The notes below the pieces were generated by a model that was not told the DNA's origin, searched no databases, and saw only the letters and a program-made list of their open reading frames with translations. Made by a program: the position numbers and the translations under genes. Shown here in pieces: positions 966-40,031 of a DNA stretch of 64,000 bases. Numbering within the stretch: the stretch's first letter is position 1; every line of letters starts with the position of its first letter. The stretch is from Antedon mediterranea (Eukaryota > Echinodermata > Crinoidea > Comatulida > Antedonidae), in contig NC_092677.1 in assembly GCF_964355755.1 (NCBI RefSeq), positions 24,460,101-24,524,100 on the forward strand, in the 5' to 3' direction.

Positions 966-1301
966 AGCATTAAAACTAATGGGATACTAAAACTCATGAT
1001 ACAATACATTCCAATTAATAGTTTATGATGCATTCTGTTTTCTTTATTTTAAATTTTAAGGTTGTAACCGTATGTTATGTTGAATATAAAATTAATTTTA
1101 AGAGGATAATTAATATTTAAAGTTTTGCAAATTTACCATCTTTGAATTATTTTAAAAATAATGTTTGATTTATACAACAGACCTACTGTACAAATTAATT
1201 TTTTATTAGTGTTTTTTTATTGGTGAACATCGACGAATAGGTCTGTATGCCTATACTTCACATACAAAATGTTCAGTCTATCCACAGGGTTGTTATAACA
1301 G

Positions 1302-4300
1302 TGACATACTACTTAGTGAAGTAACTTGTTTGCCATGGAACATGAATACAGTTACAGAACTCATTAAGTATAATAAACAAAGCACCATATTATCATTGTA
1401 AGTATTGAAGTGTACATGCGGTTGCTTTTAAGTAAATACAGAATTTACTTTTTTTGGTGATAAACCGCTAACTTTGTTTATTTCTCAATGTAGAGGGTAT
1501 TGCTAAACCGAAAACCTTAAAAAACATAGCAAACCCCATCGAACCAACATAAAAAAGTAGAATTTATTTCGTCACTTTGACGAATTGATCATTGTGATAA
1601 AAAAATACATTAAAATTTGAGCGCAAAGCGTTGTAGTGCTGCTGAGTTGTGCCTATTGTGTAGTCTAGTCATAGAATATATAAAGTATATAATATACACG
1701 GGTCCCATATATGTTCTAATGGCATGATGACGTTATCCAAATCAAAGAAAAAAAATTACAGAATTGTAAATCGTCCAAAATAGACCATGATTTATTACTG
1801 AGATTTTTTCAAAAACACGGGTGAAATGGACTGATACTGCTAAGGGAGAGAAATGCCTAATAAAGTCTACTTTAGTTAAAAAATAAGAAAAAAAAAAGCA
1901 TTGTATTTTGTAATTCTCACACTCTAGGCCCTTAACGTTAATTTTCTCTTCGTTTAGCAATTATTTACCGAGAAGCACAAAATGATGTATACAAGTGTTA
2001 TTTTCAGAAATCTTAATAAATGTGATAATTTATTGTAAAGCGTTTACAACCAGCCTATATTTAAATTATATTTCATTAATCTAAAAACGGTTCATTGTTA
2101 TATTAAATAAGTATTTAGCAGCATAGTAGGCCTGTGGTGTAATGAATAAAACAACAACACACACAATAAGTGATGTAAGATATATGATGTGTGCTTTTTT
2201 AATGAAATCAAATCGTTCAATCAAATAACAGAAAATATTCAGGTGTTATTATAGTATGGTATAATTAATAAAACTATCTTTTACATTTCATAATTTTGAA
2301 GGTGGTTGCAAAGCAATCAAATTACTACATTGACAGCCAATGCATTTGCTGGTTTGGAATCATTGAAAGAACTGTAAGTGTTATTCTTCATCATATCCAC
2401 ATACGTATTTCCATATCATGTTTTATACACATTACACATATTTAAAACTAGTACATAAATATAGGACAATGCTTATTGTGTCATATTCTAAATTAAATTC
2501 CTCAATAATAAACTGTCTGAAAGAAAACTTGAGCCTGAAACTGTAAAGGCTTTACGTTGCAAAATGTAAAATTAAATGGTGAGTTTAACAATTATTTGCT
2601 GATATGCTCACAATGATGTATAAAAAGTGTTATTGTCAGAAATCTTAATAAATGTGATAATTCATTGCAAAGCATCCACATCAGTCTATATTTATTCATT
2701 TTAATAATTAAAAAAATGTTGATTGTCTTTTAATTGTTTAATGAATTATTTAGCAGTATAATATGTAGTATGGTATCATGAATACAACTTTTTTTTATAT
2801 TTCACAACTTTGAAGGTACTTGGAGTACAATCAAATTAGTACATTGACAGAGAATGCATTCGCTGGTTTGGAATCATTGAAAGGACTGTAAGTGACGTTG
2901 TTTATGTTTACATACCTATGAAGTTAATATTAATGTTATTTACTGCACAATATACATATTTAAAAACAATATTTTAAAACTAGTACATAAATATAGGCCA
3001 ATGCTTATTGTGTCATATTCTAAATTGAATTGCTCAACATTAAACTGTATGAAAGCAAACTTGAGCCTGAAACTGTAAAGGCTTTCCGTTGCAAAATGTA
3101 AATTAAATGGCGAGTTTAGCAATTATTTGCTGTTAATCACACAATGATGTATAAATGTGTTATTGTCAGAAATCCTAATAAATGTGATTAATTCATTTCA
3201 AAAAATCCACATCAATCTATATTTATTTATTTGAAAAAAATGTTGATTGTCTTTGAATTGTTTAATGAATTATTTAGTAGTATTAGTATGCATGGTATAT
3301 AATTAATGAAACTATATATCTTTTACATTTAACAACTTTTAAGGTGGTTGTACAACAATCAAATTAGAACATTGACAGAGAATGCATTCGCTGGTTTGAA
3401 ATCATTGGAAAGTCTGTAAGTGACGTTTATTATGTTTAAATATCTATGACGTTAATCCTAAAGTTATTTACTGCACAATATACACACATTTAAAAACATT
3501 ATTTTAAAACTAGTACATAAATATAGGCCAATGCTTATTGTGTCATATTCTAAATTAAATTCCTCAATAATAAACTGTATGAAAGCAAACTTGAGCATGA
3601 AACTGAAAAGACTTTCCGTTGCAAAATGTAAAATTAAATGGTAAGTTTAGCAATTATTTACTGATATGCTCACAATGATTGTATAAATGTGTTATTGTCA
3701 GAAATATTAATAAAGGTGATAATTGATTGCAAAGCATTAACATCATCCTATATTTATTTATTTGAATAATTTAAAAAAATGTTGATTGTCTTTTAATTGT
3801 TTAATGAATTATTTAGCAGTATAATATGGTTTAATTAATCAAACTTTCATATTTCACAACTTTGAAGGGGGTTGCAGTACAATCAAATTAGTACATTGAC
3901 AGAGAATACATTCGCTGGTTTGGAATCATTGGAAGAACTGTAAGTGTTATTGATTATGTTTACATACCTATGAAGTTAATCATAATGTTATTTACTGCAC
4001 AATATACACACATTTAAAAACATTATTTTAAAACTAGTACATAAATATAGGCCAATGCTTATTGTGTCATATTCTAAATTAAATTCCTCAATAATAAACT
4101 GTATGAAAGCAAACTTGAGCATGAAACTGAAAAGACTTTCCGTTGCAAAATGTAAAATTAAATGGTAAGTTTAGCAATTATTTACTGATATGCTCACAAT
4201 GATTGTATAAATGTGTTATTGTCAGAAATATTAATAAAGGTGATAATTGATTGCAAAGCATTAACATCATCCTATATTTATTTATTTGAATAATTTAAAA

Positions 4301-7300
4301 AAATGTTGATTGTCTTTTAATTGTTTAATGAATTATTTAGCAGTATAATATGGTTTAATTAATCAAACTTTCATATTTCACAACTTTGAAGGATGTTGCA
4401 TTACAATCAAATTAGTACATTGACAGAGAATACATTCGCTGGTTTGGAATCATTGGAAGAACTGTAAGTGTTATTGATTATGTTTACATACCTATGAAGT
4501 TAATCATAATGTTATTTACTGCACAATATACACACATTTAAAAACATTATTTTAAAACTAGTACATAAATATAGGCCAATGCTTATTGTGTCATATTCAA
4601 AATGAAATTCCTCAATAATAAACTGTATGAAAGCAAACTTGAGCATGAAACTGAAAAGGCTTTCCGTTGCAAAATGTAAATTAAATGGCGATTTTAGCAA
4701 TTATTTTCTGTTAATCACACAATGATGTATAAATGTGTTATTGTCAGAAATATTAATAAAGGTGATAATTGATTGCAAAGCATCCACATCAGCCTATATT
4801 TATTTATTTGAATAATTAAAAAAAATGTTGATTGTCTTTTAATTGTTTAATGAATTATTTAGCAGTATAATATGGTATAATTAATAAAACTTTCATATTT
4901 CACAACTTTGAAGGAGGTTGGAGTACAATCAAATTACAACATTGACAGCCAATGTATTCGCTGGTTTGGAATCATTGGAAAGGCTGTAAGTGACGTTGAT
5001 TATGTTTACATACCTATGACATTAATCATAATGTTATTTACTGCACAATAAACACATATTTAAAAACAATATTTTAAAACTAGTACATAAATATAGACCA
5101 ATGCTTATTGTGTCATATTCAAAATGAAATTCCGTAATATTAAACTGTATGAAAGCAAACTTGAGCATGAAAGTGAAAAGGCTTTCCGTTACAAAATGTA
5201 AATTAAATTGTGAGTTTAGCAATTATTTGCTGATATGCTCACAATGATTGTATAAATGTGTTATTGTCAGAAATATTAATAAAGGTGATAATTGATTGCA
5301 AAGCATCCACATCAGCCTATATTTATTTATTTGAATAATTAAAAAAAATGTTGATTGTCTTTTAATTGTTTAATGAATTATTTAGCAGTATAATATGGTA
5401 TAATTAATAAAACTTTCATATTTCACAACTTTTAAGGTGGTTGCAGTACAATCAAATTAAAACATTGACAGAGAATGCATTCGCTGGTTTGAAATCATTG
5501 GAATGGCTGTAAGTGACGTTGTTTATGTTTACATACCTATGAAATTAATCCTAATGTTATTTAGTGCACAATATACACATATTTAAAAACAATATTTTTA
5601 AACTAGTACATAAATATATAGGCCAATGCTTATTGTGTCATATTCAAAATGAAATTCCTCATATTAAACTGTATGAAAGCAAACTTGAGCTTGAAACTGT
5701 AAAGGCTTTCCGTTGCAAAATGTAAATTAAATTGTGAGTTTAGCAATTATTTGCTGATATGCTCACAATGATGTATAAATGTGTTATTGTCAGAAATCTT
5801 AATAAAGGTGATAATTCATTGCAAAAAATCCACATCAGTCTATATTTAATTTATATTTCAATAATCTAAAAATGGTTCATTGTTATATTTAATAAGTATT
5901 TAGCAGCATAGTAGGCCTGTGGTGTAATGAATAAAACAACAATACACACAATATGTATACATAGATATATGGTGTGTGCTTTTTTAATGAAGTCATATCG
6001 TTCAATCAAATATTCAGGTGTTATATAGTATGGTATAATTAATAAAACTATCTTTTACATTTCATAATTTTGAAGGTGGTTGAAAAGGAATCAAATTAGT
6101 ACATTGACAGAGTATGCATTTGCTGGATTGGAATCATTGAAACAACTGTAAGTGTTATTCTACATCATATCCACATACGTACCTCCATACTGTATATCAT
6201 GTTATATACACATTACACACATTGTACATACACCGTAACCTTATTTGGTTACTTTTGTCGACATGAATTATTTTCATAATAATTCATTATTGAGTAAATC
6301 AAAATTATAGTATTTATTAGTTTGTTACCAATATTAGGAATATTTAGCATTGTTATAGCCTGTGAATCAAATTTAAGTAAGTAAGCTATAAGATTTAATA
6401 AGAAATTTTAACTTTATTCGTATTTATTCATTCATTTTGACACACCAGCCCTGGTATTTATTCTTACAAAGGTTTTACAATTTAATCTCACTCTTATTTG
6501 CTGTGACGAAATACCTCTCCTCATATACACACAATGTTTAAAAACAATATTTTAAAACTAGTACATAAAAGGCCAATTAAATTGTGTCATATTCAAAATA
6601 AAATTCCTCAACTGTAAAGCAAATTTGAGCCTGAAACTGTAAAGGCTTTAGGAAAATAAGTAAATAGCCTTTACATACCCTATTTTAAATTCTAAAAAGT
6701 CTGAAAAAATCTTCAAGTGCAGTCGTGATCGATTAGTGTATTTGACCAATGTAAACATATGAAGTGAATTTGTGCCTGAAACTGACAAGACTTTCCGTTA
6801 CAAAATGTAAATTATATAGAGTGTTTACCAATTATTTGATAATATTCACACAATGTATTATTGTTATTGTCAGAAATATTCTTAATTCATGGCCTATATT
6901 TAATTAATCCAATAATCTAAAAATCAGTCATTGTATTCAATTGGATATTTGGCTAAAACTATCTTTTACATTTGAAAACTTTAAAGGTTGTTAAGCAATA
7001 ATCAAATTAGTACATTGACAGAGAATGCATTCGCTGGTTTGAAATCATTGGAAAAGCTGTAAGTGACGTTGTTTATGTTTACATACCTATGACGTTAATC
7101 GTAATGTTATTTACTGCACAATAAACACATATTTAAAAACAATATTTTAAAACTTATACATAAATATATGCCAATGCTTATTGTGTCATATTCAAAATTA
7201 AATTCCTTAATATTAAACTGTATGAAAGCAAACTTGAGCGTGAAACTGTAAAGGCTTTCCGTTACAAAATGTAAATTAAATGGTGAGTTTAGCAATTATT

Positions 7301-10300
7301 TGCTGATATGCTCACAATGATGTATAAAAGTGTTATTGTCAGAAATCACAATAAAGGTGATAATTCATTGCAAAAAATCCACATCAGCCTATTTATTTAT
7401 TTGAATAATTAAAAAAAATGTTGATTGTCTTTTAATTGTTTAATGAATTATTTAGCAGTATAATAATATGGTTTAATTATTAATAAAACTATATCTTTTA
7501 CATTTAACAACTTTTAAGGTGGTTGTACAACAATCAAATTAGTACATTGACAGCCAATGCCTTCGCTGGTTTGGAATCGTTGAAAGAACTGTAAGTGACG
7601 TTGTTTATGTTTACATACCTATGAAGTTAATCATAATGTTATTTACTGCACAATATATACATATTTAAAAACAATATTTTAAAACTAGTACATTATAGGC
7701 CAATGTTTATTGTGTCATTATTCAAAATGAAATTCCTCAATATTAAACTGTATGAAAAAAACTTGAGCCTGAAACTGAAAAGGCTTTCCGTTGCAAAATG
7801 TAAATTAAATGGTGAGTTTAGCAATTATTTGCTGATAATCACACAATGATGTATAAATGTGTTATTGTCAGAAATATTAATAAAGGTGATAATGCATTGC
7901 AAAGTATCCACATCAGCCTATATTTATTCATTTTAATAATTTAAAAAATTTTGATTGTCTTTTAATTGTTTAATGTTATTTAGCAGCTTAATATGGTATA
8001 ATAATAAAACTATATCATTTATATTTCACAACTTTTAAGATATTTGCAAAACAATCAAATTAGTACATTGACAGCCAATACATTCGCTGGTTTGAAATCA
8101 TTGGATAGTCTGTAAGTGACGTTGTTTATGTTTACATACCTATGAAGTTAATCCTAATGTTATTTACTCCACAATATACACATATTTAAAAACAATATTT
8201 TAAAACTAATACATAAATATAGGCCAATGGTTATTGTGTCATATTCAAAATGAAATTTCTCAATATTAAATTGTATGAAAGCAAACTTGAGCCTGAAACT
8301 GAAAAGGCTTTTCGTTGCAAAATGTAAATTTATATGGTGAGTTTAGCAATTATTTACTGATATGCTCACAATGATGTATAAAAGTGTTATTGTCCGAAAT
8401 CTTAATAAAGGTGATAATTCATTGCAAAAAATCCACATCAGTCTATATTTAATTTATATTTCAATAATCTAAAAATGGTTCATTGTTATATTTAATAAGT
8501 ATTTAGCAGCATAGTAGGCCTGTGGTGTAATGAATAAAACAACAATACACACAATATGTATACATAGATATATGGTGTGTGCTTTTTTAATGAAGTCAAA
8601 TCATTCAATCAAATAACATGAAATATTCAGGTGTTATATAGTATGGTATAATTAATAAAAACTATCTTTTACATTTCATAATTTTGAAGGTGGTTGGAAA
8701 ACAATCAAATTAGTACATTGACAGAGAATGCATTTGCTGGTTTGGAATCATTGAAAGACCTGTAAGTGTTATTCTACATCATATCCACATACGTACCTCC
8801 ATACTGTATATCATGTTATATACACATTACACACATTGTACATACATCGTAACCTTATTTTGTTACTTTTGTCAACATGGATTATTTTCATAATAATTCA
8901 TTTTTGAGTAAATCAAAATTATAGTATTTATTAGTTTGTTACCAATATTAGGAATATTTAGCCTGTGAATCAAATTTAAGTCAGTAAGCTATAAGATTTA
9001 AAAAGAAATTTTTAATTTTATTCGTATTTATTTATTCATTTTGACACACCAGCCCTGGTTTTTATTCTTACAAAGTTATTACAATTTAATCTCACTCTTA
9101 TTTGTTGTGACGAAATACCTCTCCTCATAGAATTGACCAATATACATTAACTATTAGCTTAATTAAACAGGTATTTACAGGACAACAATATAACTACTAT
9201 TGATCAAGGCGCCTTCTCTGTTTTTGCCTTATCACTTGGAAAACTGTAAGTAATTTATTCTGAAATTCATGCAGTTTCTCGAAATAATTAATCACTTCAA
9301 TTAGGTACTTTTCTTATGCTATAAACATGTTATCCAAGAAAAAACGGTATCAACAGGATAGGTTTACATACATTTTTTAAACATGGGTAAATGTTTACAT
9401 TCATTATTGTATCTGGCTCATTCCATGGAGTTGAAAATGAGAAAGCATTTTAAAAGTTAATATAACAAGTAGAACAAACAACTTAAGTGGATTTACACTA
9501 ATAATTACTTTGTATCTGTAACGTTAAAATATATACCAATGATAGATACATATAAAGTAGAAGGATTATCTTCGTGAGGTGGTTTCCCGAATGATCGTAA
9601 AATCAAAAACGGTACTGTGTATGACCAACTAGCGTTATTGTCACCGGCTAGTCATCCATTCATAGAAGTACTGATGTAGTAGCCTACCTGTACGGAGACC
9701 ATAGAATGTGACCCGAGGCATGACTAACTACGACTTTAGATGATAGGAAGTTGAGAAAAAATGTTACGAGTAGTTGTACGACATGAAGATGTTTATGAAA
9801 TTATGTCAATAATGTTTACACACTAGGCATACAAATAGTAATGTTTGTTAGTAAAAATAATTTTGAGTTAATAAGAATAAGATATAAGAAAGAAAAGCAA
9901 AGAGACTATGGAGCGGCTATTCCTGAATATACAATACTAAAGTATCGTAGATTTAAATAATAAATTTTAGGCGATCTTGTCAAAGGTCAAGCGCCATATA
10001 GCCTGCCACGTTTCGATATTCAATATTGAACTTGACCTTACTTTGTATCTGTAACGTTAAGGATAGATACATATAAAGTAGAAGGATTATCTTAAGTGCC
10101 GACGGTGATAAAAATATTATTTTGAGACTACATTGCATCAGTTAGACACTATATTGATTGTGGTATACCTTCATTAATACGATATCACTAAAACGACATC
10201 GGTGCTATCCAAATGAGACATACTCGTAGATATTTAGTTACATGTGAGCTACACTCATTGACACTGATTTGATATTTGTTTCCATATTTATTTTTTTTAC

Positions 10301-11696
10301 AGAGACATCAGACGCAACAATTTACAAGTTTACAGAGAAAGTACTTTTGAACAATTGAAATATATAACAGAATTGTAAGTATTATGTCGGATTTAGAAAT
10401 TCTTTATATTCATTAAATTATATTTTTATTTTGTTTTAACACAGTTACCAATTCCACATGCATGCCGACAGTGGCCCAACAAAATTGTTTATGTAGGCCT
10501 ACAGCTTTTAGGTTATTTTAAATTTCTCCTTCACTTCTATCTTTTAAATTGGTCGTACACGTCATACTTTTACTATACGAGTAGATTTGATTGGCTGTAA
10601 AGCAGTTGTTATTCCACCTGTTATAGAACTAAAACCATTATAAACATTGTTATAGTAGGCTACTACTGTATTTAACAACTTCCATTAAATTCAATTGTTT
10701 TTTTAACATAGATATTCAGATTTGTTTCGTCTCTGTTGTGTTGTTGGAGAAATTGAAGTATGTGAGCCTACTGATGCTTTTGCGTCCTGCGCTGACTTAC
10801 TAAAGAGAGAAGTTCTTAGGATATTGATGATAGTTATTGGACTGTCATCTTTTATCGGTAACTTGATTGTCATCATATCGCGAAGGATAAACAAAGAAAA
10901 TAGGTCTACAGTTGATTCTATTCTACTCACTAATCTTGCCGCGGCTGACTTGCTGATGGCAATTTATTTGCTGATCATCGCAGGTGCAGATATACACTAC
11001 AGAGGAAGGTACGCGAAGGTTGCCAGCGAATGGAAAAACAGCTTTCTCTGCTCTTTTTCCGGTGCTATTTCAACACTGTCTGGGCAGTGTTCCGTGTCAA
11101 CCTTGATGGTTATGAGTATTAACCGTGCTATAAACATCGTCTATCCATTCAGCACCAAACGGCTCAAACGTACGAAATGCAAAATTATCATCGGTATTGG
11201 TTGGCTGGTATGGCTTTTTATTAGTTTCCTTCCACTGGTAGCTAACAAGTCACATGTCGGCATACCATATTTTGGCGAGAACTACTACGGAAAACAAAGT
11301 GTGTGTCTCGCGTTGCCACTAACACGACATCGATTACCAGGCTGGGAGTACGCCACGGCCATATTCATCGCATTCAATGGCTTGGGTTTGTTTGTTATCA
11401 CAGCAAGTTATTTGACGATTTTCCTCTCCGTTAAGAGATCTGCAATCACGGCTAACAGAATGCAGAGACGAGAAGAGGAAATCAAAATGGCCGTGAAACT
11501 AGGGTTTATTGTTTTCACCGATTTCTGTTGCTGGTTTCCCATCATAGTAATGGGAATTTGTTCAGAGATGGAGTGGTGGAAAATTCCTGATGATATATAC
11601 GTTTGGGCAGCAACATTTATAATTCCCATTAACTCATCAGTAAACCCATATCTTTACACAATTATCTATATGTGTAAAAGCGAGCGCAGGCCATAA
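1302..11696 (+). CDS. LRR-rich relaxin-receptor-like GPCR (type C LGR-like), copy A, 5' end not found
   Basis: Split gene with exons 1302-1397 (LRRNT-like, residues read VTCLPWN), 2302-2373, 2816-2887, 3344-3415, 3868-3939, 4392-4463, 4914-4985, 5437-5508, 6076-6147, 6987-7058, 7519-7590, 8040-8111, 8690-8761, 9171-9245, 10303-10374 and 10712-11696. All have AG acceptors and GTAAG donors, and every junction splits a Leu codon after its second base. The product is about 700 residues: an LRR cap, twelve near-identical 24-residue LRRs, two divergent LRRs (one 25 residues), a YSDLFRLCC hinge and a seven-helix domain. This architecture is that of leucine-rich-repeat GPCRs of the relaxin receptor/GRL101 class, cell-surface hormone receptors. 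I saw no LDLa module or signal peptide; those exons should lie upstream of the window. Ligand unknown. Family assignment is firm, exact orthology is not. Confidence 0.85.
2302..8761 (+). repeat. LRR exon-cassette array A: 12 tandem exon-plus-intron units
   Basis: Twelve 72-nt exons, each one LRR, embedded in duplicated introns; the commonest unit step is about 523-524 bp. Framework residues are nearly constant: L2, N5, Q6, I7, T9, L10, N13, F15, G17, L18, L21 and L24. Residues 1,3,4 and 22,23 vary, in order: WQS/KE, YEY/KG, WYN/ES, GQY/EE, MHY/EE, REY/ER, WQY/EW, WKR/KQ, LSN/EK, WYN/KE, YQN/DS, WEN/KD. Introns come in a short type and a longer type carrying extra blocks (for example the TAGGCCTGTGGTGTAATG block before exons 2302, 6076 and 8690), so multi-unit segments have also been copied. 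Confidence 0.92.
9505..10093. repeat. Direct repeats (about 55-68 bp) flanking a segment present only in copy A
   Basis: The block CTTTGTATCTGTAACGTTA followed by GATAGATACATATAAAGTAG and AAGGATTATCTT occurs at about 9505-9572 and 10038-10093. The first copy has 13-14 extra bases in the middle. About 465 bp lie between them. The matching intron of copy B (around 25615-25660) has only the right-hand part of one repeat and no intervening segment. Either copy A gained this after the duplication or copy B lost it. No coding content seen. Confidence 0.75.
10712..11696 (+). CDS. Seven-transmembrane exon of receptor copy A
   Basis: A single exon of 985 nt covers the hinge and all seven helices. Counting from the Leu codon at 10722, helices lie at about 31-54, 65-90, 107-141, 153-173, 211-236, 256-281 and 292-316. 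Cys110 and Cys195 match the conserved helix 3 to loop 2 disulfide. NPYLY at 308-312 matches NPxxY, and TDFCCWFPI in helix 6 is typical of LGRs. The usual D/E-R-Y of helix 3 is Asn134-Arg135-Ala136. Only twelve residues follow NPxxY before the stop, so the cytoplasmic tail is very short. The AG acceptor ends at 711 of this kilobase (10711). There are no frameshifts. Confidence 0.93.
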
Positions 11697-16139: not shown

Positions 16140-17054
16140 TGAAAAGTGTTTTTCTGTTAGTGTTAGTGTCCAAGATACAACAGTATTGACAACACGTAAC
16201 ATTTTGTTAGTGTTTGGTTCTTTTAGTGTTCAAATTTCCACCATACAACAGTGTTGAAAACACGTAGCATTTTGTTCTGCTAGTGTCCATATTCCAGCAA
16301 ACAACAGTGTTGAATACGCGTATCATTTTGTTAGTGTTTGGATCTTTTAGTGTCCATGTTTCCACCATACAACAGTGTTGAACACACGATCATTTTGTTA
16401 GTATTTGGTTCTGTTGGTGTCCATGTTTCCACCATACAACAGTGTTGAACACACGATCATTTTGTTAGTATTTGGTTCTGTTGGTGTCCATGTTTCCACC
16501 ATACAACAGTGTTGACTAACATTTTGTTAGCGTTTGGTTCTATTAGTGTTAAAGTTTCCATCATACAACAGTGTTGAAAACACGTAGCATTTTGTTAGTG
16601 TTTGGTTCTATTAGTGTTAAAGTTTCCACCATACAACAGTGTTGAAAACACGTAGCATTTTGTTAGCGTTTGGTTATATTATTGTTCAAATTTCCACCTT
16701 ACAACAGTGTTGAACACACGTAGCATTGTGTTATAAGTGCTTGGTTCTGTTAGTGTCCATGTTTCCACCATACAACAGTGTTGACAAACATTTTGTTAGT
16801 GTTTGGTTCTGTTAGTGTTCAAGTTTCCACCATACAACAGTGTTGAAAACGCATAGCATTTTGTTAGTGTTTGGTTCTGTTTGTGTCCATGTTCCAATTC
16901 ATACATAGCAGTGTTGAAAACAACATGTAGCATTTTGTTAGCGTTTGGTTCTGTTAGTGTCCATGTTTCCACCATACAACAGTGTTGAAAACACGTAGCA
17001 TTTTGCATCGTGTTTTGTTCTGTTAATGTCCATGTTTCCACCCTACAACAGTGT
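16140..17054. repeat. Minisatellite upstream of receptor copy B
   Basis: About fourteen units of the same 60-68 bp family as 1-735. Window position 1 corresponds to 16388 here, and the register shifts by about one unit by 16796, so the two arrays differ in copy number. Confidence 0.9.
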
Positions 17055-17285: not shown

Positions 17286-17621
17286 AGCATTAAAACTAAT
17301 GGGATACTAAAACTCATGATACAATACATTCTAATTAATAGTTTATGATACTTTCTGTTTTCTTTATTTTAAATTTTAAGGTTGTAACCGTATGTTATGT
17401 TGAATGTAAAATTAATTTTAAGAGGATAATTAATATTTAAAGTCTTGCAAATTTACCATCTTTGAATTATTTTAAAAATAATGTTTGATTTATACAACAG
17501 ACCTACTGTACAAATTAATTTTTTATTAGTGTTTTTTTATTGGTGAACATCGACGAATAGGTCTGTATGCCTATACTTCACATACAAAATGTTCAGTCTA
17601 TCCACAGGGTTGTTATAACAG

Positions 17622-20600
17622 TGGCATACTACTTAGTGAAGTAACTTGTTTGCCATGGAACATGAATACAGTTACAGAACTCATTGAGTATAATAAACAA
17701 AGCACTATATCAAAATTGTAAGTATTACAGTGTATGTACTTATTGTGTAGCCATAGAATATATACAGTATATAATATACATAGTGAGATTACGGGTTCCA
17801 TATGTTCTAATGGCATGATGACGTTATCCAAATCAAACATGAAGATGACAATTTCGGAAAATAATGATTCGAGCTAAAAGATATATGATTTTGAAGAAAA
17901 TTGGACACGTAGAAGCGCGAAGCGCGCTGTTTTAGATTTGTATAACTGACAAAAGCTTTCAAAATAAGTTATAAACACCAAGGTCACCTCTAATTACTGA
18001 AGGGCTAAAAATATACGGTGTAAGTGAAATTACGCGATCAATGTTGTTCAAATTTTTAGGCGTGATGACGTCATTAAAATGAGATTGGTGGAACTACACG
18101 ATTCAGTAACTTTTATGTTGGTTCAATGGGGTTTGCTATGTTTTTTTAGAGTTTGCGGGGTTTGGTAATTATTTTAAACCAAAAGGTGATGTTTTACCCC
18201 AAAAATAAGTAGTTAACAACAATTTTGTGTTTGTTTAATTGACACAAAGTTTGTAGTACACTACACGATTCAGTAACTTTTATGTTGGTTTGATGGAGTT
18301 TTCTATGTTTCTAAGGTTTGCGGGGTTTACGGTGATTACCAATACCCAATGTATACATTTGTCAAATAAATCAGAAATGGTCTACAGACCTGTCAAGAGT
18401 ATCAAGAAAAACAATCAGAATTGTACATCGTCCAAGATAGACCATTATTTATTATTTAGGTTTTTCCAAAAACCCGGGTGAAAAGGACTGATTCTGCTGA
18501 AGGAGAGAACTGCCTAATAAAGACTACATTAGTTTTAAAAAAAGAAGAAAAAAAAAACATTGCATTTTGTAATTCTCACACTCTTGGCCCTTAACGTTTA
18601 TTTCTGTTTGTTTTTATATTTATTTATTTAAATTTTCTTTTGCATTTCACAACTTTAATAAATTAATTATTGATGGTGATTTTGATTGAATAATTAAAAA
18701 AAATGTTGATTGTCTTTTTAATTGTTTAATGAATTATTTAGCAGCATAATATATGGTATAATTAATAAAACAATATCTTTTACAACTTATAAGGGGTTTG
18801 AATAACAATGAAATTAGTACATTGACAGCCAATGCATTCTCTGGTTTGGAATCATTGGAATGGCTGTAAGTGACGTTGATTATGTTTACATACCTATGAC
18901 GTTAATCATAATGTTGTTTACTGCACAATATACACACATTTAACAAAATTATTTTAAAACTAGTACATAAATATATGCCAGTGCTTATTGTGTCATATTC
19001 TAAATTAAATTCCTCATATTAAACTGTATGAAAGCAAACTTGAGCCTGAAACTGTAAAGGCTTTCCGTTGCAAAATGTAAAATTAAATGGTGAGTTTAGC
19101 AATTATTTGCTGATATGTTCACAATGATGTATAAATGTGTTATTGTCAGAAGTCTTAATAAATGTGATAGTTCATTGCAAAGCATCCACATCAGCCTATA
19201 TTTATTTATTTGAATAATTAAAAAAAATGTTGATTGTCTTTTAATTGTTTAATGAATTATTTAGCAGTATAATATGGTATAATTAATAAAACTATATCTT
19301 TTAAATTTAACAACTTTTAAGGTGGTTTTTCGACAATCAAATTAGTACATTGACAGCCAATGCATTCGCTGGTTTGGAATCATTGGAAAAACTGTAAGTG
19401 ACGTTGTTTATGTTTACATACCTATGACGTTAATCTTAATGTTATTTACTGCACAATATACACATATTTAAAAACAATATTTTTAAACTAGTACATAAAT
19501 ATAGGCCAATGCTAATTGTGTCATATTCAAAATGAAATTAGTCAATATTAAACTGTATGAAAGCATACTTGAGCCTGAAATTGTAAAGGCTTTCCGTTGC
19601 AAAAGGTAAATTAAATGGCGAGTTTAGCAATTATTTTCTGTTAATCACACAATGATGTATAAATGTGTTATTGTCAGAAATCTTAATAAAGGTGATAATT
19701 CATTGCAAAAAATCCACATCAGTCTATATTTAATTTATATTTCAATAATATAAAAATGGTTAATTGTTATATTTAATAAGTATTTAGCAGCATAGTAGGC
19801 CTGTGGTGTAATGAATAAAACAACAATACATACAATATGTGATGTAAGATATATGATGTGTGCTTTTTTAATGAAGTCAAATCGTTCAATTAAATAACAG
19901 GAAATATTCAGGTGTTATATAGTATGCTATAATTAATAAAACTATCTTTTACATTTCATAATTTTAAAGGTGGTTGCAAAGCAATCAAATTACTACATTG
20001 ACAGCCAATGCATTTGCTGGTTTGGAATCATTGAAAGAACTGTAAGTGTTATTCTTCATCATATCCACATACGTATTTCCATATATATCATGTTTTATAC
20101 ACATTACACATATTTAAAACTAGTACATAAATATAGGACAATGCTTATTGTGTCATATTCTAAATTAAATTCCTCAATAATAAACTGTATGAAAGCAAAC
20201 TTGAGCCTGAAACTGTAAAGGCTTTCCGTTGCAAAATGTAAAATTAAATGGCGAGTTTAGCAATTAATTGCTGATATGGTCACAATGATTGTAAAAATGT
20301 GTTATTGTCAGAAATCTTAACAAATCAAAGCATCCACATCAGCCTATATTTATTCATTTGAATAATTAAAAAAAATGTTGATTGTCTTTTAATTGTTTAA
20401 TGAATTATTTAGCAGTATAATATGGTATAATTAATAAAACTTTCATATTTCACAACTTTTAAGGTGGTTGTACAACAATCAAATTAGAACATTGACAGCC
20501 AATACATTTGCTGGTTTGGAATCATTGGAAGGACTGTAAGTGACGTTGTTTATGTTTACATACCAATGAAGGTAATCCTAATGTTATTTACTGCACAATA

Positions 20601-23600
20601 TACACACATTTAAAACAATATTTTAAACTAGTACATAAATATAGGCCAATGCTTATTGTGTCATTATTCAAAATGAAATTCGTCAATAATAAACTGTATG
20701 AAAGCAAACTTGAGCCTGAAACTGTAAAGGCTTTTCGTTGCAAAATGTAAATTTATATGGCGAGTTTAGCAATTATTTTCTGTTAATCACACAATGATGT
20801 ATAAATGTGTTATTGTCAGAAATCTTAATAAAGGTGATAATTCATTGCAAAAAATCCACATCAGCCTATGTTTAATTTATATTTCAATAATCTAAAAATG
20901 GTTCATTGTTATATTTAATAAGTATTTAGCAGCATAGTAGGCCTGTGGTGTAATGAATAAAACAACAATACACACAATATGTGATGTAAGATATATGATG
21001 TGTGCTTTTTTAATGAAGTCAAATCGTTCAATCAAATAACAGGAAATATTCAGGTGTTATATAGTATGCTATAATTAATAAAAACTATCTTTTACATTTC
21101 ATAATTTTGAAGGTTGTTGTACAACAATCAAATTAGTACATTGACAGCCAATGCATTCGCTGGTTTGAAAGCATTGGATAGTCTGTAAGTGACGTTGTTT
21201 ATGTTTACATACCTATGACGTTAATCTTAATGTTATTTACTGCACAATATACACACATTTAAAAACAATATTTTAAAACTAGTACATACATATATAGGCC
21301 AATGCTTATTGTGTCATATTCTAAATTAAATTCCTCAATATTAAACTGTATGAAAGCAAACTTGAGCCTGAAACTGTAAAGACTTTCCGTTGCAAAATGT
21401 AAATTAAATGGTGAGTTTAGCAATTATTTGCTGATATGCTCACAATGATGTATAAAAGTGTTATTGTCAGAAATCACAATAAAGGTGATGATTCATTGCA
21501 AAGCATCCACATCAACCTATATTTATTCATGAATTATTTAGCAGTAATATGGTATAATTAATAAAACTGTCATATTTCACACCTTTAAAGGTCGTTAAGC
21601 AGAAATCAAATTAGTACATTGACAGAGAATGCATTTGCTGGTTTGGAATCATTGGATAGTCTGTAAGTGACGTTGTTTATGTTTACATACCTATGACGTT
21701 AACCGTAATGTTATTTACTGCACAATATACACATATTTACAAAACAATATTTTAAACTAGTACATAAATATAGACCAATGCTTATTGTGTCATATTCTAA
21801 ATTAAATTCCTTAATATTAAACTGTATGAAAGCAAACTTGAGCTTGAAACTGTAAAGGCTTTCCGTTTCAAAATGTAAATTAAATGGCGAGTTTAGCAAT
21901 TATTTTCTGTTAATCACACAATGATGTATAAATGTGTTATTGTCAGAAATCTCAATAAAGGTGATAATTCATTGCAAAAAATCCCCATCAGTCTATATTT
22001 AATTTATATTTAAATAATCTAAAAATGGTTCATTGTTATATTTAATAAGTATTTAGCAGCATAGTAAGCCTGTGGTGTAATGAATAAAACAACAATATAC
22101 ACAATATGTATACATAGATATATGGTGTGTGCTTTTTTAATGAAGTCATATCGTTCAATCAAATAACAGAAAATTATTTAGGTGTTATATAGTATGGTAT
22201 AATTAATAAAACTATCTTTTACATTTCATAATTTTGAAGGAGGTTGCAAAGCAATCAAATTAGTACATTGACAGCCAATGCATTTGCTGGTTTGGAATCA
22301 TTGCAAAGGCTGTAAGTGTTATTCTTCATCATATCCACATACGTACTTTCATATATATCATGTTTTATACACATTCAAGATAGGGGCCTACACACATTGT
22401 ACACACATCATAACCTTATTTGGTGAAATACTTAAGTCGACATGGATTATTTTCATAGTAATTCATTATTAGAAAGAGTAAATCAAACTGAGTATTTTAT
22501 TAGTTTGTTACCAAACTAGGTAACAAATGTAACAATAGAGGAATATTTAGCAGTGTATAGCATATGAATCAAATTTAAGTAAGTAAGCTATAAGATTTAA
22601 TAAGAAATTGTTAATTTTATTCGTATTTATTCATTCATTTCGACACACACTAGCCCTGGTATTTATTCTTACAAAGTTATTACAATTTAATCTCACTCTT
22701 ATTTGCTGTGACGAAATAACTCTCCTCATATACACAACTATTTAAAAACAATATTTTAAAACTAGTATATAAATATAGGCCAATTAAATTGTGTCATATT
22801 CAAAATAAAATTTCTCAACTGTATAGCAAATTTGAGCCTGAAACTGTAAAGGCTTTAGGAAAATAAGTAAATAGCCTTTACATACCCTATTTTAAATTCT
22901 AAAAAGTCTGACAAAATCTTCAAGTGCAGTCGTGATCGATTAGTGTATTTGGTAAACTGTATGAAGTGAATTTGTGCCTGAAACTGACAAGGCTTTCCGT
23001 TGTAAAATGTAAATTAAATTGTGAGTTTAGCAATTATTTGCTGGTTTTCACACAATGTATTATTGCTATATTGTCAGAAATATTATTAGGTAAAGTTAAT
23101 TCATGGCCTATATTATTTTAATTAATCCAATAATCTAAAAATTAGTCATTGTCTTCAATTGAATATTTTGCTAAAACTATATCTTTTACATTTAACAACT
23201 TTTAAGGGGTTTGCAATACAATCAAATTAGTACATTGACAGCCAATACATTCGCTGGTTTGGAATCGTTGAAAGAACTGTAAGTGACGTTGTTTATGTTT
23301 ACACACCTATGACGTTAATCCTAATGTTATTTACTCCACAATATACACATATTAAAAAAAAACAATATTTTTAAACTAGTACATAAATATATAGGCCAGT
23401 GCTTATTGTGTCATATTCAAAATGAAATTCCTCAATATTAAACTGTATGAAAGCAAACTTGAGCCTGAAACTGTAAAGGCTTTCCGTTGCAAAATGTAAA
23501 TTAAATGGCGAGTTAAGCCATTATTTTCTGTTAATCACACAATGATGTATAAATGTGTTATTGTCAGAAATCTTAATAAAGGTGATAATTCATTGCAAAA

Positions 23601-26600
23601 AATCCATATCAGTCTATATTTAATTTATATTTCAATAATCTAAAAATGGTTCATTGTTATATTTAATGAGTATTTAGCAGCATAGTAGGCCTGTGGTGTA
23701 ATGAATAAAACAACAATATACACAATATGTATACATATTTATATGGTGTGTGCTTTTTTAATGAAGTCAAATCATTCAATCAAATAACATAAAATATTCA
23801 GGTGTTATATAGTATGGTATAATTAATAAAACTATCTTTTAAATTTCATAATTTTGAAGGTTGTTGTACAACAATCAAATTAGTACATTGGCAGAGAATG
23901 CATTTGCTGGTTTGGAATCACTGAAAGAACTGTAAGTGTTATTCTTCATCATATCCACATACGTATTTCCATATATATCATGTTTTATACACATTACATG
24001 TACATACATCGTAACCTTATTTGGTGAAATACTTTTGTCGACATGGATTATTTTTATAATAATTCATTTTTAGAAAGAGTAAATCAAACTTATTTTTTTA
24101 GTTTGTTACCAAATTAGTTAACAAATTTAACAATAGAGGAATATTTAGCATTGTTATAGTCAAATTTAAGTAAGTAAGCTATAAGATTTAAAAGGAAATT
24201 TGTATTCATTCATTTTGACACACACCAGCCCTGGTTTTTATTCTTACAAAGTTATTACAATTTAATCTCACTCTTATTTGGTGTGACGAACTACCTCTCC
24301 TCAAATAAACATATTTAAAAACAATATTTTAAAACTAGTACATTATAGGCCAATGTTTATTGTGTCATATTCAAAATGAAATTCCTCATTAAACTGTATG
24401 AAAGCAAATTTGAGCCTGAAACTGTAAAGGCTTTCCGTTGCAAAATGTAAATTAAATGGCGAGTTTAGCAATTATTTTCTGTTAATCACACAATAATGTA
24501 TAAATGTGTTATTTTCAGAAATCTTAATAAAGGTGATAATTCATTGCAAAAAATCCACATCAGTCTATATTTAATTTATATTTCAATAATCTAAAAAATG
24601 GTTCATTGTTATATTTAATAAGTATTTAGCAGCATAGTAGGCCTGTGGTGTAATGAATAAAACAACAATACACACAATATGTATACATAGATATATGGTG
24701 TTTGCTTTTTTAATGAAGTCATATCGTTCAATCAAATAACATGAAATATTCAGGTGTTATATAGTATGGTATAATTAATAAAACTATCTTTTACATTTCA
24801 TAATTTTGAAGGTGGTTGCAAAGCAATCAAATTAGTACATTGGCAGCCAATGCATTTGCTGGTTTGGAATCATTGAAAGACCTGTAAGTGTTATTCTTCA
24901 TCATATCCACATACGTACCTCCATACTGTATATCATGTTTTATACACATTACACACATTGTACATACATCGTAACCTTATTTGGTTACTTTTGTCGACAT
25001 GGATTATTTTCATAATAATTCATTATTGAGTAAATCAAAATTATAGTATTTATTAGTTTGTTACCAATATTAGGAATATTTAGCATTGTTATAGCCTGTG
25101 AATCAAATTTAAGTTAGTAAGCTATAAGATTTAAAAAGACATTTTTAATTTTATTCGTATTTATTCATTCATTTTGACACACCAGCCCTGGTTTTTATTC
25201 TTACAAAGTTATTACAATTTAATCTCACTCTTATTTGTTGTGACGAAATACCTCTCCTCAAAGAATTGACCAATATACATTAACTATTAGCTTAATTAAA
25301 CAGGTATTTACAGGACAACAATATAACTACTATTGATCAAGGCGCCTTCTCTGTTTTTGCCTCATCACTTGGAAAACTGTAAGTAATTTATTCTGAAATT
25401 CATATGCAGTTTCTCGAAATAATTAATCACTTCAATTAGGTACTTTTCTTATGCTATAAACATGTTATCCAAGAAAAAACGGTATCAACAGGATAGGTTT
25501 ACATACATTTTTTAAACATGGGTAAATTTTTACATTCATTATTGTATCTGGCTCATTCCATGGAGTTGAACATGAGAAAGCATTTTAAAAGTTAATCTAA
25601 CAAGTAGAACAAACAACTTTTTATATAATTAAACATATAAGTAGAAGGATTATCTTAAGTGCCGACGGTGATAAAAATATTATTTTGAGACTACATTGCA
25701 TCAGTTAGACACTAAATTGATTGTGGTATACCTTCATGAATACGATATCACTAAAACGACATCGGTGCTATCCAAATGAGACATACTCGTAGATATTTAG
25801 TTACATGTGAGCTACACTCATTGACACTGATTTGATATTTGTTTCCATATTTTTTTTTTTTTTACAGAGACATCAGACGCAACAATTTACAAGTTTACAG
25901 AGAAAGTACTTTTGAAGAATTGAAATATATAACAGAATTGTAAGTATTATGTCGGATTTAGAAATTCTTTATATTCATTAAATGATATTTTTATTTTGTT
26001 TTAACACAGTTACCAATTCCACATGCATCCCGACAGTGGCCCAACAAAATTGTTTATGTAGGCCTACAGCTTTTAGGTTATCTTAAATTTCTCCTTCACT
26101 TCTATCTTTTAAATTGGTCGTACACGTCATACTTTTACTATACGAGTAGATTTGATTGGCTGTAAAGCAGTCGTTATTCCACCTGTTATAGAACTAAAAC
26201 CATTATAAACATTGTTATAGTAGGCTACTACTGTATTTAACAACTTCCATTAAATTCTATTGTTTTTTTTAACATAGATATTCAGATTTGTTTCGTCTCT
26301 GTTGCCTTGTTGGAGAAATTGAAGTATGTGAGCCTACTGATGCATTTGCGTCATGCGCTGACTTACTAAAGAGAGAAGTTCTTAGGATTTTGATGTTAGT
26401 TATTGGACTGTCATCTTTGATTGGTAACTTTATTGTCATCATATCGCGAAGGATAAACAAAGAAAATAGGTCTACAGTTGATTCTATTCTACTCACTAAT
26501 CTTGCCGCGTCTGACCTCCTGATGGCAATTTATTTGCTGATCATCGCAGGTGCGGATATACACTACAGAGGAAGGTACGCGAAGGTTGCCAGCGAATGGA

Positions 26601-27262
26601 AAAACAGCTTTCTCTGCTCTTTTTCCGGTGCTATTTCAACACTGTCTGGGCAGTGTTCCGTGTCAACCTTGATGCTTATGAGTATTAACCGTGCTATAAA
26701 CATCATCTATCCATTCAGCACCGAACGGCTCAAACGTACGAAATGCAAAATTATCATCGGTATTGCTTGGCTGGTATGGCTTGTTATTAGTTTCCTTCCA
26801 CTGGTAGCTAACAAGTCACATGTCGGCATACCGTATTTTGGCGAGAACTACTACGGAAAACAGAGCGTGTGTCTCGCGTTGCCACTAACACGACATCGAT
26901 TACCAGGCTGGGAGTACGCCACTGCCATATTCATCGCATTCAATGGCTTGGGTTTTTTTGTTATCGCAGCAAGTTATTTGACGATTTTACTCTCCGTTAA
27001 GAGATCTGCAATCACGGCTAACAGAATGCAGAGACGAGAAGAGGAAATCGAAATGGCCGTGAAACTAGGGTTTATTGTTTTCACCGATTTCTGTTGCTGG
27101 TTTCCCATCATAGTAATGGGAATTTGTTCAGAGATGGAGTGGTGGAGAATTCCTGATGATATATACGTTTGGGCAGCAACATTTATAATTCCCATTAACT
27201 CATCAGTAAACCCATATCTTTACACAATTATCTATATGTGTAAAACCGAGCGCAGGCCATAA
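17622..27262 (+). CDS. LRR-rich relaxin-receptor-like GPCR (type C LGR-like), copy B, 5' end not found
   Basis: Tandem paralogue of the gene at 1302-11696, same strand. Exons: 17622-17717 (LRRNT-like), 18794-18865, 19322-19393, 19970-20041, 20464-20535, 21113-21184, 21591-21662, 22240-22311, 23207-23278, 23860-23931, 24812-24883, 25304-25378, 25868-25939 and 26278-27262. All splice sites are canonical and all junctions keep the Leu-splitting phase. It has ten cassette LRRs instead of twelve. The two C-terminal LRR exons and the seven-helix exon are nearly unchanged from copy A, while the cassette part differs in number and content. No start codon or signal peptide was identified in the 4.7 kb between the genes, so either the first exon is there and unrecognised or this copy lacks its own. 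Confidence 0.84.
18794..24883 (+). repeat. LRR exon-cassette array B: 10 tandem exon-plus-intron units
   Basis: Ten 72-nt LRR exons with the same framework as array A. Residues 1,3,4 and 22,23, in order: GNN/EW, WFD/EK, WQS/KE, WYN/EG, LYN/DS, SSR/DS, RQS/QR, GQY/KE, LYN/KE, WQS/KD. The first has Glu instead of Gln6 and the second Phe instead of Leu2. The longer intron type (TAGGCCTGTGGTGTAATG block) precedes exons 19970, 21113, 22240, 23860 and 24812, five times here against three in array A. Confidence 0.92.
26278..27262 (+). CDS. Seven-transmembrane exon of receptor copy B
   Basis: Same length and frame as the exon at 10712-11696. About fifteen residues differ out of 324, mostly conservative changes inside helices (for example Val to Leu, Phe to Leu) plus Lys to Glu at the second intracellular loop and after helix 5. 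NPYLY, the Cys110-Cys195 pair, the Asn-Arg-Ala motif in place of D/E-R-Y and the short tail are shared, so those oddities predate the duplication and have been kept. Confidence 0.93.
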
Positions 27263-31439: not shown

Positions 31440-32350
31440 GAATATGTTTTCAAAAAAGACCGTCAACAACCGTAAAATATTACATTATAATCGTACGAGT
31501 TATTTTTCTATTTACACATATCGTCTCAATTATACAGTGCAACAAAGGAGCAGATGAAACGAATTTATATAAAATCACCATTTTTGGAAACCTATGGTAA
31601 AGAAAACAAATAGGCCTACAGTGAGCTACGTTTTACAATGTCTCTATTTAAGGGTTTGGATATAATAATATAGAGACCTTTAGAATTATTGTACGTGTCA
31701 ACAGTTTCATTGTACTATTATCAATAGAAAGACCTATTTTCAAAAACATTTTTATTAAATTGCATTGAAGCACAACGTATGTAAGGAATGGTTATTTATT
31801 TATTTCTTTATTCTGATATAAAAATCAAATAGGATAAATACACAAAAAAGTACCGAGACGGCAAACTTATTTCCATTGTGGTTTATATATTAGTGTAGTG
31901 TAGGGTGACTGTATACAGAGAAATAGTAGGAGATCTGCTGAATTTCAGGTCAAGTGTTGCTGTAGAAATACAATACAACGAAATAGGATTAGTATAGGCT
32001 CACTGGATAGATTTCAAATAGGATTAGTATAGGCTCTCTGGTTAGATTCCAAATAGGATTAGTATAGGCTCACTGGTTAGATTCCAAATAGGATCAGTAT
32101 AGGCTCACTGGATATATTACAAATAGGATTAGTATAGGCTCACTGGTTAGATTCCAAATAGGATTAGTATAGGCTCACTGGATAGATTTCAAATAGGATT
32201 AGTATAGGCTCACTGGTTAGATAACAAATAGGATTAGTATAGGCTCACTGGTTAGATTACAAATAGGATCAGTATAGGCTCACTGGTTAGATTACAAATA
32301 GGATCAGTATAGGCTCACTGGTTAGATTCCAAAATAAAGGCACAGGTAAG
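31440..32350. repeat. Diverged duplicated non-coding segment, second copy
   Basis: Counterpart of 29580-30180. It differs mainly by an internal 36-bp minisatellite expansion just before the shared GGTAAG. Sequence from 30.2 to 31.4 kb between the copies shows no gene that I recognise. Confidence 0.5.
31983..32331. repeat. 36-bp minisatellite, about 10 units
   Basis: The word ATAGGATTAGTATAGGCTCA, followed by CTGGTTAGATT, recurs about ten times with small changes (GATTAG/GATCAG, GGATAG/GGTTAG). The matching place in the related segment near 30120 has only one comparable unit, so the expansion is local and recent. Confidence 0.9.
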
Positions 32351-37469: not shown

Positions 37470-37753
37470 TATACAATATATGGGTTTATACTAAAAAAGA
37501 AAAGGATGCCACCAGTTATTTATTTATTGTTTAACGGAGCTGCACCACATGTTAACCTCACGCGGCATTACAAATACATACCGCAATATTTTGCAATACA
37601 ATAATCATCGCAAAAAAGTGCTTTGCTTATAAGTATGAAAAAGTAATATGTAAAAATGCAATTTAAACTATATATTCCAATAAGTTAAATCAGGGAAGAG
37701 TTAAATTATGAACTCTTCCCTGGTTAAATAATATTAATATTTTAATTTTACAG

Positions 37754-40031
37754 TAATGCTGATTATAGGCTTAGAGACTTTTGTCAAGAATTCAGTAATG
37801 CTTATCCAGGGAATAAAAGACACGAGTTAAGATTTCTTTTACATGATCATCTACCGGTTGGTGTATTGGCAAATGAACACTACACGGGAATGGATTTATT
37901 TAATGAACTTAAGGATAAAGGCAAAATCTCATACGAGGATGTTAAAATAATGTCAGAAATTGCAGAGGTGTCAGCAAATGCCAAAGCAAAAGACAGTGTA
38001 AAGAAATATAAACGAGACGTCAGTAAACAGTATGACAATACCGGTCCGTGTAAAGCAAGTTTGTCTTCAAAGCGTAAAAAATTTTATAACGCTATGAGTG
38101 AAATCACGGAAGATGCCGAAGGTGATTTGCACAACTTGATTGCGTACTACAAATTGGCTCCACGTGGATTTAAAAATAAATGGGATTTAGTATTTCATCT
38201 AGAGAAAGAACATCAATTAAACACAAAGCTGCAATTGGTAAAATTTGCCAATCTGTTGAATGTAGGTGCAAATAGAATATTATTGAGTAAGTATTCAAAA
38301 CTATACTACTGTAAAATTATTTCCACATGTCATTTGTTGTTGTCTCCACTATACTGCTATATGTCTGAAACAAATACTTATTAATAGAAGAGACGTACTT
38401 AAGTACTAGAGTTGTCTCGCACTAGTGATCATGACTGTGTTCTTAACAGTACGTAAACCCAGAAAAGGGTAGAGCTTTCTGACATTTCGACAATGAAAGT
38501 TTTAAGTCTGATCTAGCGGGTGCACCCGCTTCTAAAACCCTCTTCCGGCTCTATTATTTTAATTCTATTTTTTATCAAATCAAAATCACACTGCAACCTA
38601 TGAAACAAGTCTATTCATTTTGTCTCTTCGACAGAAAGCTAAATATCTCAAAGGCAAACGTAGGACTTCATCTACTCTCTATTGCAAATTTTATCGCTCA
38701 ATTTGGCATCGTGGTCTATTGCAATAACTCAATAAATTTGCAATCGAGTGACCAGCTACATTATAATTTTCGGCTACAGGTTGATAAAGCTTTAATGTTT
38801 TGATCGCTGCCATTCTCATCATACGGAGTGTTTTCTTGGTTTCTCCCATGTACTGTTTTACACACACGTAAACGGTGGTTGCCCAAAGAACACGTATACC
38901 ATTACGATAACAAGTTGGGTTGTTATTTCATTTCCTATGCATATAGTCAATTAAATCTCTACTAAAAAAAAAAAAAAAAATATTCTTTATTGGTTTATTA
39001 TATTATTGTACAGGTAGACCACAAGTTCGTAAGAATAAAATTGAAGACTTTAAATTATATATACCTTCAAATACAAAAACAGGTATGTTAGACATTTTTT
39101 TGACTGACCATATCAAGTAACCTAAACTGATATAAATCAATTGCAGTGTGGATTTAGGGCCAGTTTAATGGGGCTTTAAATATTAAAATGAATTAAATAC
39201 CTAAAAATATTTCACGTTAGTCTAGTAATAAATATTATGTTTTTCTGCAAATTTCGTCATTATTATTGATTATGCTGAATTTGATTTCGTTACTGTAGCC
39301 CTTTTTATCGATTTTGGCAACATTCAACAGCAAGGACGCGTTCATTTCAGTTGAAGCAAACTCATGAGTTTTTAACCAAGTTTTCTTACATGAGTCCAAC
39401 ATAGTATTGGCCGTGAGAAAATCCATGGACAGATAAACGCCATATAACCGCCAAACAATTCAGTATAACTACCAAAAAAAATTGATGTTTTTGTTTCTGT
39501 ATTTCTTTTTGTATATGTACATTTAATGGCTTGTAGGTTTTATAATAATCTCCTAATTCATTCGTTTTAAAGTCAACTCCATTATTATACATCGCCTGAG
39601 ACTAACATGCAGTATAGGGTTTGTAATGTAAAAACAACAATTGTAATAATGTCAATCATAATAGCAAATTACAACTTTTTCTTAATTTCCCTTTTGTTTC
39701 TTTATAGCATTGATTTGTTGTTGTTTTCGTAATCTTGGTTCTAGACTGTATTTCAACTTAATAATAGAAAAAATATAAATATTTTGGTATACATGGCGTT
39801 TCATACGTATTATAGTTGAGTTAGAAATATGTATTTAAATTTCCAGGAAAAAATCGAAACATCGGCTGGTGGACAAACATAAAACAAAAAACACAGTCTA
39901 CTGTTTGTATTGCTATCGTAGCTATCTTCATCATAGGCCTACTATATTGGTATATTTCCAGCAATCCAGAAGGTAAGTGGTATTTCAATCCAAGAGGACC
40001 TGACATGGAACAGAAGGAATCTACTTTCTGA
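37754..40031 (+). CDS. Death-effector-domain protein with C-terminal transmembrane anchor, first exon not found
   Basis: Three exons are supported: 37754-38286, 39014-39082 and 39847-40031 (stop TGA), all with canonical splice sites and matching phases. Exon 1 begins in a DED: YRLRDFC, HELRFLLHDHLP, GMDLFNELKDKGKIS and VKIMSEIAEV follow the six-helix DED pattern of FADD/caspase-8 type adaptors. A second helical part (LSSKRKKFYNAM ... NKWDLVFHLEKEH ... FANLLN) looks like a diverged second DED. The E/D-RxDL surface motif is not clearly kept. After a basic linker comes a hydrophobic stretch VCIAIVAIFIIGLLYWYI, a credible membrane helix, and about 20 residues. A donor within the last exon (39972) would allow another tail. 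DEDs mediate homotypic assembly in apoptotic and immune signalling; a membrane-tethered one is unusual. The start Met was not located. Confidence 0.72.

Follow-up and report, generated by a model that had tools for sequence, protein, structure and literature searches.

Tandem copying of a leucine-rich-repeat exon in a relaxin-receptor-like gene of Antedon mediterranea, with probable diversifying selection at concave codons

The type C leucine-rich-repeat-containing G protein-coupled receptors (LGRs) RXFP1, RXFP2 and GRL101 join an ectodomain of leucine-rich repeats (LRRs) to a class A seven-transmembrane (7TM) domain, an arrangement shared by two genes in a 64,000-nucleotide stretch of the crinoid Antedon mediterranea (NC_092677.1, positions 24,460,101 to 24,524,100 of the forward strand; hereafter, the window). 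The window genes differ from these receptors in that no LDLa domain was found upstream of them, in their arrays of near-identical LRR exons and in probable diversifying selection at the concave face. In lamprey VLRs, as in the window genes, variable residues lie on the concave LRR strands, but VLRs are assembled somatically and have no 7TM domain. We report here the recent tandem duplication of a single LRR exon with its intron in a relaxin-receptor-like gene, whose concave variants have probably been favored by positive diversifying selection.

LDLa is said to be essential for RXFP1 activation (PMC4837482). The exon scheme itself is known from brown algal ROCO genes, in which each LRR is a 72-bp phase-2 exon, exons are shuffled and four concave sites are positively selected (PMC11378527). 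ROCO proteins are ROC-COR GTPases, whereas the C-terminal domain of the window genes is a 7TM domain and not ROC-COR; because the signaling domain is unrelated, ROCO genes are a parallel case. Tetrahymena LRR genes also have tandem phase-2 LRR exons, for which unequal crossing-over has been proposed, but these exons are 90 bp long and most of the genes are reported to be under purifying selection (PMC6564038). In Biomphalaria sudanica, SudRes2 is a cluster of GRL101-like LRR G protein-coupled receptors (GPCRs) with diverse extracellular regions that is associated with schistosome resistance; it resembles the Antedon cluster in being made of clustered LRR-containing GPCRs, although SudRes2 genes carry LDL and C-type lectin domains and, in the text consulted, are described with neither LRR-exon arrays nor selection at concave codons (PMC12297450). 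This resemblance may be a lead for an immune role and is not evidence for such a role here. In a partial literature search, we recognized no earlier account of arrayed LRR exons in GPCRs of the LGR type. What is new is the setting, relaxin-receptor-like GPCRs apparently without LDLa, rather than the scheme.

The focal features are as follows.

3463..4598, plus strand: 524-bp tandem duplication, with three mismatches between its copies in an alignment of 612 bases
3868..3939, plus strand: LRR cassette 4 (focal A), GGG (Gly) at residue 1 and CAG (Gln) at residue 3
4392..4463, plus strand: LRR cassette 5 (focal B), ATG (Met) at residue 1 and CAT (His) at residue 3

An original prediction, made from the letters of the window, held that the two copies differ only at ligand-facing codons. 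Realignment of 3463-4074 with 3987-4598 was gapless over 612 positions and gave exactly the three mismatches described, at 3869 (G/A), 3870 (G/T) and 3877 (G/T), which change codon 1 from GGG to ATG and codon 3 from CAG to CAT in the 72-nt exons. The intron and the rest of the exon are identical, with exact tracts 3463-3868 and 3878-4074 flanking the patch. The duplicated tract exceeds one 524-bp unit, which is what unequal crossing-over between such units would be expected to produce. None of the 21 other window cassettes has Met at residue 1 or His at residue 3, again as predicted; among the 71 listed cassettes of the cluster, Met at residue 1 is unique to focal B, and His at residue 3 occurs in one other, as CAC (C8:24381138). 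The claim that this is the youngest pair holds within the window but fails in the cluster, where 7 of 25 disjoint pairs are identical over 400 intron bases plus the exon. The probability that three random mismatches of 612 would all fall within the 15 bases of five concave codons is 1.2e-5, but since this pair was picked because it was striking, the family-wide test carries more weight.

The concave codons are those for residues 1, 3, 4, 22 and 23. In the alignment with RXFP1, D231 falls at cassette position 1, E233 at position 3, E277 at position 23 and D279 again at position 1 (chain numbers minus 21, by our own count). These four residues bind the relaxin B-chain cassette, according to earlier work (PMC4837482). 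Positions 1, 3 and 23, which are among the five that vary most in the cassettes, are thus aligned to relaxin-binding residues. Because positions 1 and 3 align with residues named as relaxin-binding, the focal codons are predicted to correspond to ligand-contacting sites in the nearest receptor of solved structure. The LRR consensus places positions 4 and 22 on the same strand, but no RXFP1 contact aligns with them.

In place of codon site models, we compared substitution rates in the concave codons with those in introns across four clusters of cassettes (C8, which includes the window, C7A, C7B and C1). Pairs were selected on introns alone, using 200 bases per side, divergence of at most 0.04 and flank gaps of at most 60, with each cassette used once. 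The 25 disjoint C8 pairs differed at 104 of 9934 intron bases, 33 of 375 bases in concave codons and 12 of 1350 in the other 18 codons. Concave codons therefore changed 8.4-fold faster than introns (bootstrap 4.5-12.7; Fisher 1.4e-18), the direction anticipated from the focal pair; the ratio was 10.6 in the 21 pairs with intron divergence of at most 0.02 and 7.9 once the focal pair was removed. Outside the concave set, the synonymous rate of the exon (0.0115) nearly equaled that of introns (0.0105), which allows introns to be used as a neutral clock; the concave nonsynonymous rate was 0.0925. For most framework residues, the rate of change does not exceed that of introns. Averaged over all alignable C8 pairs (725 of 2485), concave divergence was 0.384, compared to 0.068 for introns.

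For the other clusters, intron divergence of up to 0.06 was allowed and the codon set was carried over from C8; some C7 and C1 cassettes had already been inspected and partly run. On the C7 contig, C7A (30 cassettes, 11 pairs; intron 113/4353, concave 61/165, rest 11/594) gave a ratio of 14.2, and C7B (38 cassettes, 12 pairs; intron 108/4688, concave 60/180, rest 16/648) a ratio of 14.5. Smaller first runs on subsets of the C7 and C1 data had given 10.9 (5 pairs, divergence up to 0.08), 3 pairs from C7c (intron 19/1175, concave 5/45) and a single pair from C1. Clusters C9 (3 cassettes), C10a (6), C10b (none) and C6 (2) lay outside the test. Positive selection at concave sites, as described for ROCO genes, is thus indicated in three of the four clusters, in keeping with the strong diversifying selection that had been proposed from the focal pair. 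As a separate observation, one pair at C7:5779814-5789813 (d565/d5144) has 8 concave changes against 4 in 399 intron bases, more concave changes than the focal pair.

Relaxed constraint at solvent-exposed positions could in principle produce variable codons, and the concave positions, which hold many different residues, are likely to be exposed at the surface. However, relaxation cannot exceed the neutral rate, and in three clusters the concave rate was 8 to 15 times that of introns (1.9 in C1), which makes this explanation highly improbable.

Several results weigh against diversifying selection, either directly or by favoring another explanation. The C1 cluster gave a ratio of just 1.9 that was not significant (P 0.19; 21 cassettes, 6 pairs; intron 68/2381, concave 5/90, rest 7/324), and fast concave change is therefore not general to every cluster. 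Among the 48 young pairs from C8, C7A and C7B, 16 show no difference in any concave codon, and one C8 pair has two framework changes and zero concave changes. Variation is also seen at codons 8, 12, 14 and 19, which do not belong to the concave set, and the set was fixed after the C8 cassettes had been inspected. Codon 2, which is flanked by two hot codons, carries a silent TTA in 6 of 71 cassettes. Path-averaged synonymous rates were raised in concave codons, at 0.055 (2.5/45.2) in C8 and 0.179 (2.5/14.0) in the C7 subset, compared to 0.0115 and 0.016 in the rest of the exon. Finally, in the 32 pairs with a concave change, intron mismatches in successive 50-bp bins from the exon numbered 73, 92, 71 and 52, as opposed to 5, 6, 7 and 19 in the 16 pairs without one.

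The silent TTA and the raised synonymous rates would both fit a mutational process that targets the start of the exon and acts without selection, for example a deaminase or error-prone repair. The original prediction had offered this as its alternative, and the confinement of the focal changes to nine bases, including a tandem GG to AT, also speaks for it. The raised path-averaged rates stem mostly from codons with several changes, which can be ordered along more than one path. At concave codons whose residue was unchanged, only 2 synonymous changes were seen, compared to the 12.6 expected under a hotspot (48 pairs from C8, C7A and C7B; Poisson P 3e-4; as it considers codons with an unchanged residue, the test is approximate). 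Codons 5 and 7 are identical in all 71 C8 cassettes, codon 4 varies at its first two bases but, among the 67 cassettes where it ends in C or T, has C at the third in 66, and codon 23, at the opposite end of the exon, equals codons 1 and 3 in variability. Selection is favored over a hotspot because of the shortage of synonymous changes at unchanged concave codons, and we regard a mutational process by itself as unlikely.

Short-tract gene conversion is a stronger competitor. Since the framework is fairly constant, copying an exon from a neighbor would show mainly at concave codons, and the diversity would be shuffled rather than newly mutated. The shift of intron mismatches towards the exon in pairs with concave changes hints at such copying, and 8 of the 25 differing C8 concave codons differ at two or more bases. 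Among 17 differing C8 patches (one of which differs only silently, at codon 2), both alleles were present in other distinct cassettes in 4; in the other 13, at least one allele occurred in no other distinct cassette, identical-exon copies not being counted, and new variants therefore arise as well. Shuffling alone also cannot lift mean concave divergence so far above that of introns. Because mismatches sit nearer the exon in pairs with concave changes, short exchanges among cassettes may account for part of the concave excess; conversion as the main cause of the pattern is possible, yet we hold it the less probable account.

The focal pair itself argues against conversion, as the rest of its tract shows no difference, and as searches of 152 kb and, at up to 3 mismatches, of the whole assembly gave no LRR exon that could have donated the ATG..CAT patch. 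The whole-assembly search returned 16 places, one of them the focal unit itself and nine others in the C8 cluster that lack the patch. The six places outside C8 were read: four carry ATGTTGCAT, and none of the six lies behind an AG or can be read as an LRR exon. This bears out the earlier statement that the change was not copied from a visible donor; a donor on an unsampled haplotype is possible. Under diversifying selection, the Met and His codons would most simply stem from fresh point mutation, or from an allelic variant that unequal crossing-over brought alongside, and would then have been fixed or maintained by selection.

An assembly artefact, in which two alleles of one unit were set in tandem or the array was mis-joined, was also considered. 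Neighboring units are near-identical, and other exact tracts (3487, 2517 and 1181 bases) occur between duplicated parts of the cluster. No N is present in the window or the 88 kb upstream, although this does not itself prove the join. On the other hand, the concave pattern recurs in other pairs and on another contig, and allelic units would still differ at concave codons only. We therefore consider an artefact quite unlikely.

The wider family suggests how such copies may form. The C8 contig has eight receptor genes with 7TM exons in tandem, gene 1 of the window being the seventh, with 9, 11, 7, 8, 5, 9, 12 and 10 cassettes, respectively. All 71 listed cassettes are tandem 72-nt phase-2 exons with AG/GT flanks and a CT ending, as found with a scan model 72 nt long, which would miss other exon lengths. 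With each LRR encoded by one such exon, unequal crossing-over between similar introns would add or remove whole repeats in frame; we infer this process because genes range from 5 to 12 cassettes and the flanks are identical. Variants at residues 1, 3, 4, 22 and 23, new or exchanged, would then be favored by positive diversifying selection, since these residues are expected to line the concave strand where RXFP1 holds relaxin.

The remaining exons of gene 1 and those of gene 2 are listed below.

1288..1397, plus strand: LRR N-cap exon of gene 1, with two Cys, joined in frame to the LRR exons (gene 2 counterpart 17608-17717)
2302..2373, plus strand: LRR cassette 1, WLQSN
2816..2887, plus strand: LRR cassette 2, YLEYN
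3344..3415, plus strand: LRR cassette 3, WLYNN
4914..4985, plus strand: LRR cassette 6, RLEYN
5437..5508, plus strand: LRR cassette 7, WLQYN
6076..6147, plus strand: LRR cassette 8, WLKRN
6987..7058, plus strand: LRR cassette 9, LLSNN
7519..7590, plus strand: LRR cassette 10, WLYNN
8040..8111, plus strand: LRR cassette 11, YLQNN
8690..8761, plus strand: LRR cassette 12, WLENN
9171..9245, plus strand: 75-nt penultimate LRR exon of gene 1 (gene 2 counterpart 25304-25378)
10303..10374, plus strand: last LRR exon of gene 1 (gene 2 counterpart 25868-25939)
10712..11696, plus strand: Cys hinge and rhodopsin-type 7TM domain of gene 1 in a single exon, open to the stop (Pfam 7tm_1 E 1.4e-30; RXFP1 E 1.1e-47)
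17608..27262, plus strand: receptor gene 2, with N-cap exon, ten 72-nt cassettes, two last LRR exons and 7TM exon 26278-27262
18794, 19322, 19970, 20464, 21113, 21591, 22240, 23207, 23860 and 24812, plus strand: starts of the gene 2 cassettes

The gene 1 model comprises 16 exons in one open frame of 701 residues (N-cap, twelve 72-nt cassettes, two LRR exons and the hinge-7TM exon), with exon joins predicted from sequence; the 5' exons that would hold its start codon and signal peptide were not found upstream. The gene 2 frame is open across 14 exons down to the final stop. Gene 1 has the LRR ectodomain, Cys hinge and rhodopsin-type 7TM domain of the LGR family. Among PDB entries, its spliced protein best matched RXFP1 (E 1.4e-82), as did its 7TM exon (E 1.1e-47), followed by the LH receptor (1.5e-30) and then the FSH and TSH receptors; a 7TM domain closest to RXFP1 among solved LGRs is a type C feature. 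Upstream of the two window genes, the two of the eight cluster genes that were scanned in this way, three-frame Pfam searches of the plus strand between the preceding 7TM exon and the first cassette gave no LDLa match at E of at most 1, and none of the 150 scored of 955 genome LDLa candidates lay in the cluster. LDLa matches occur near more distant paralogues, such as C4:21384569 and C3:7040062. Because LDLa was found near those paralogues but not before either window gene, these receptors are classed as relaxin-receptor-like LGRs, apparently without LDLa, rather than as full type C members. A 68-bp minisatellite at 4-735 and 16145-17054 ends approximately 550 bp upstream of the N-cap exon in both genes, and may mark gene borders or aid recombination.

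Genome-wide, there were at least 121 7TM-exon matches at E of at most 0.001, the weakest at approximately 25% identity, with further groups of close 7TM paralogues on C7, C9, C1, C10 and C3. Mean nonsynonymous (dN) and synonymous (dS) divergence among C8 7TM exons was 0.0107 and 0.0257 (21 pairs of seven exons; one stop-bearing exon was left out, and the stop codon was skipped in another). Constraint on these exons is modest, because dN was at or above dS in several of the closest pairs. Two of the eight C8 7TM exons contain an internal stop (C8:24410801-24411787 and 24429623-24430552), and some copies thus look decayed. The exons at C8:24384683 and 24454419, approximately 70 kb apart, have dN and dS of 0, which suggests recent duplication or conversion.

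Collectively, the change of copied repeat exons mostly at a few codons expected to face the ligand suggests that ligand-binding specificity is evolving very fast, possibly driven by a changing ligand. More tentatively, a GPCR family may have turned into a variable recognition repertoire, in which LDLa was lost, single-LRR exons multiplied and the concave face was diversified by fast-changing microbial, parasite or mate ligands, possibly with alternative splicing of cassettes. The locus offers an animal case in which one LRR is one exon, arrays are predicted to expand and contract, and substitutions concentrate at the hormone-binding positions of a solved human relative; since every repeat carries its own intron clock, selection becomes directly measurable for individual contact residues. 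If the ligands are non-self, this would be a GPCR-based variable recognition system, and if they are the animal's own peptides, a case of very rapid hormone-receptor coevolution.

The window also contains a reverse transcriptase frame with RVT_1 and zf-RVT domains (45857-48562), a frame with a weak death-effector-domain match below the Pfam cut-off (37746-38381) and approximately ten tandem copies of a 35-bp unit (31981-32333).

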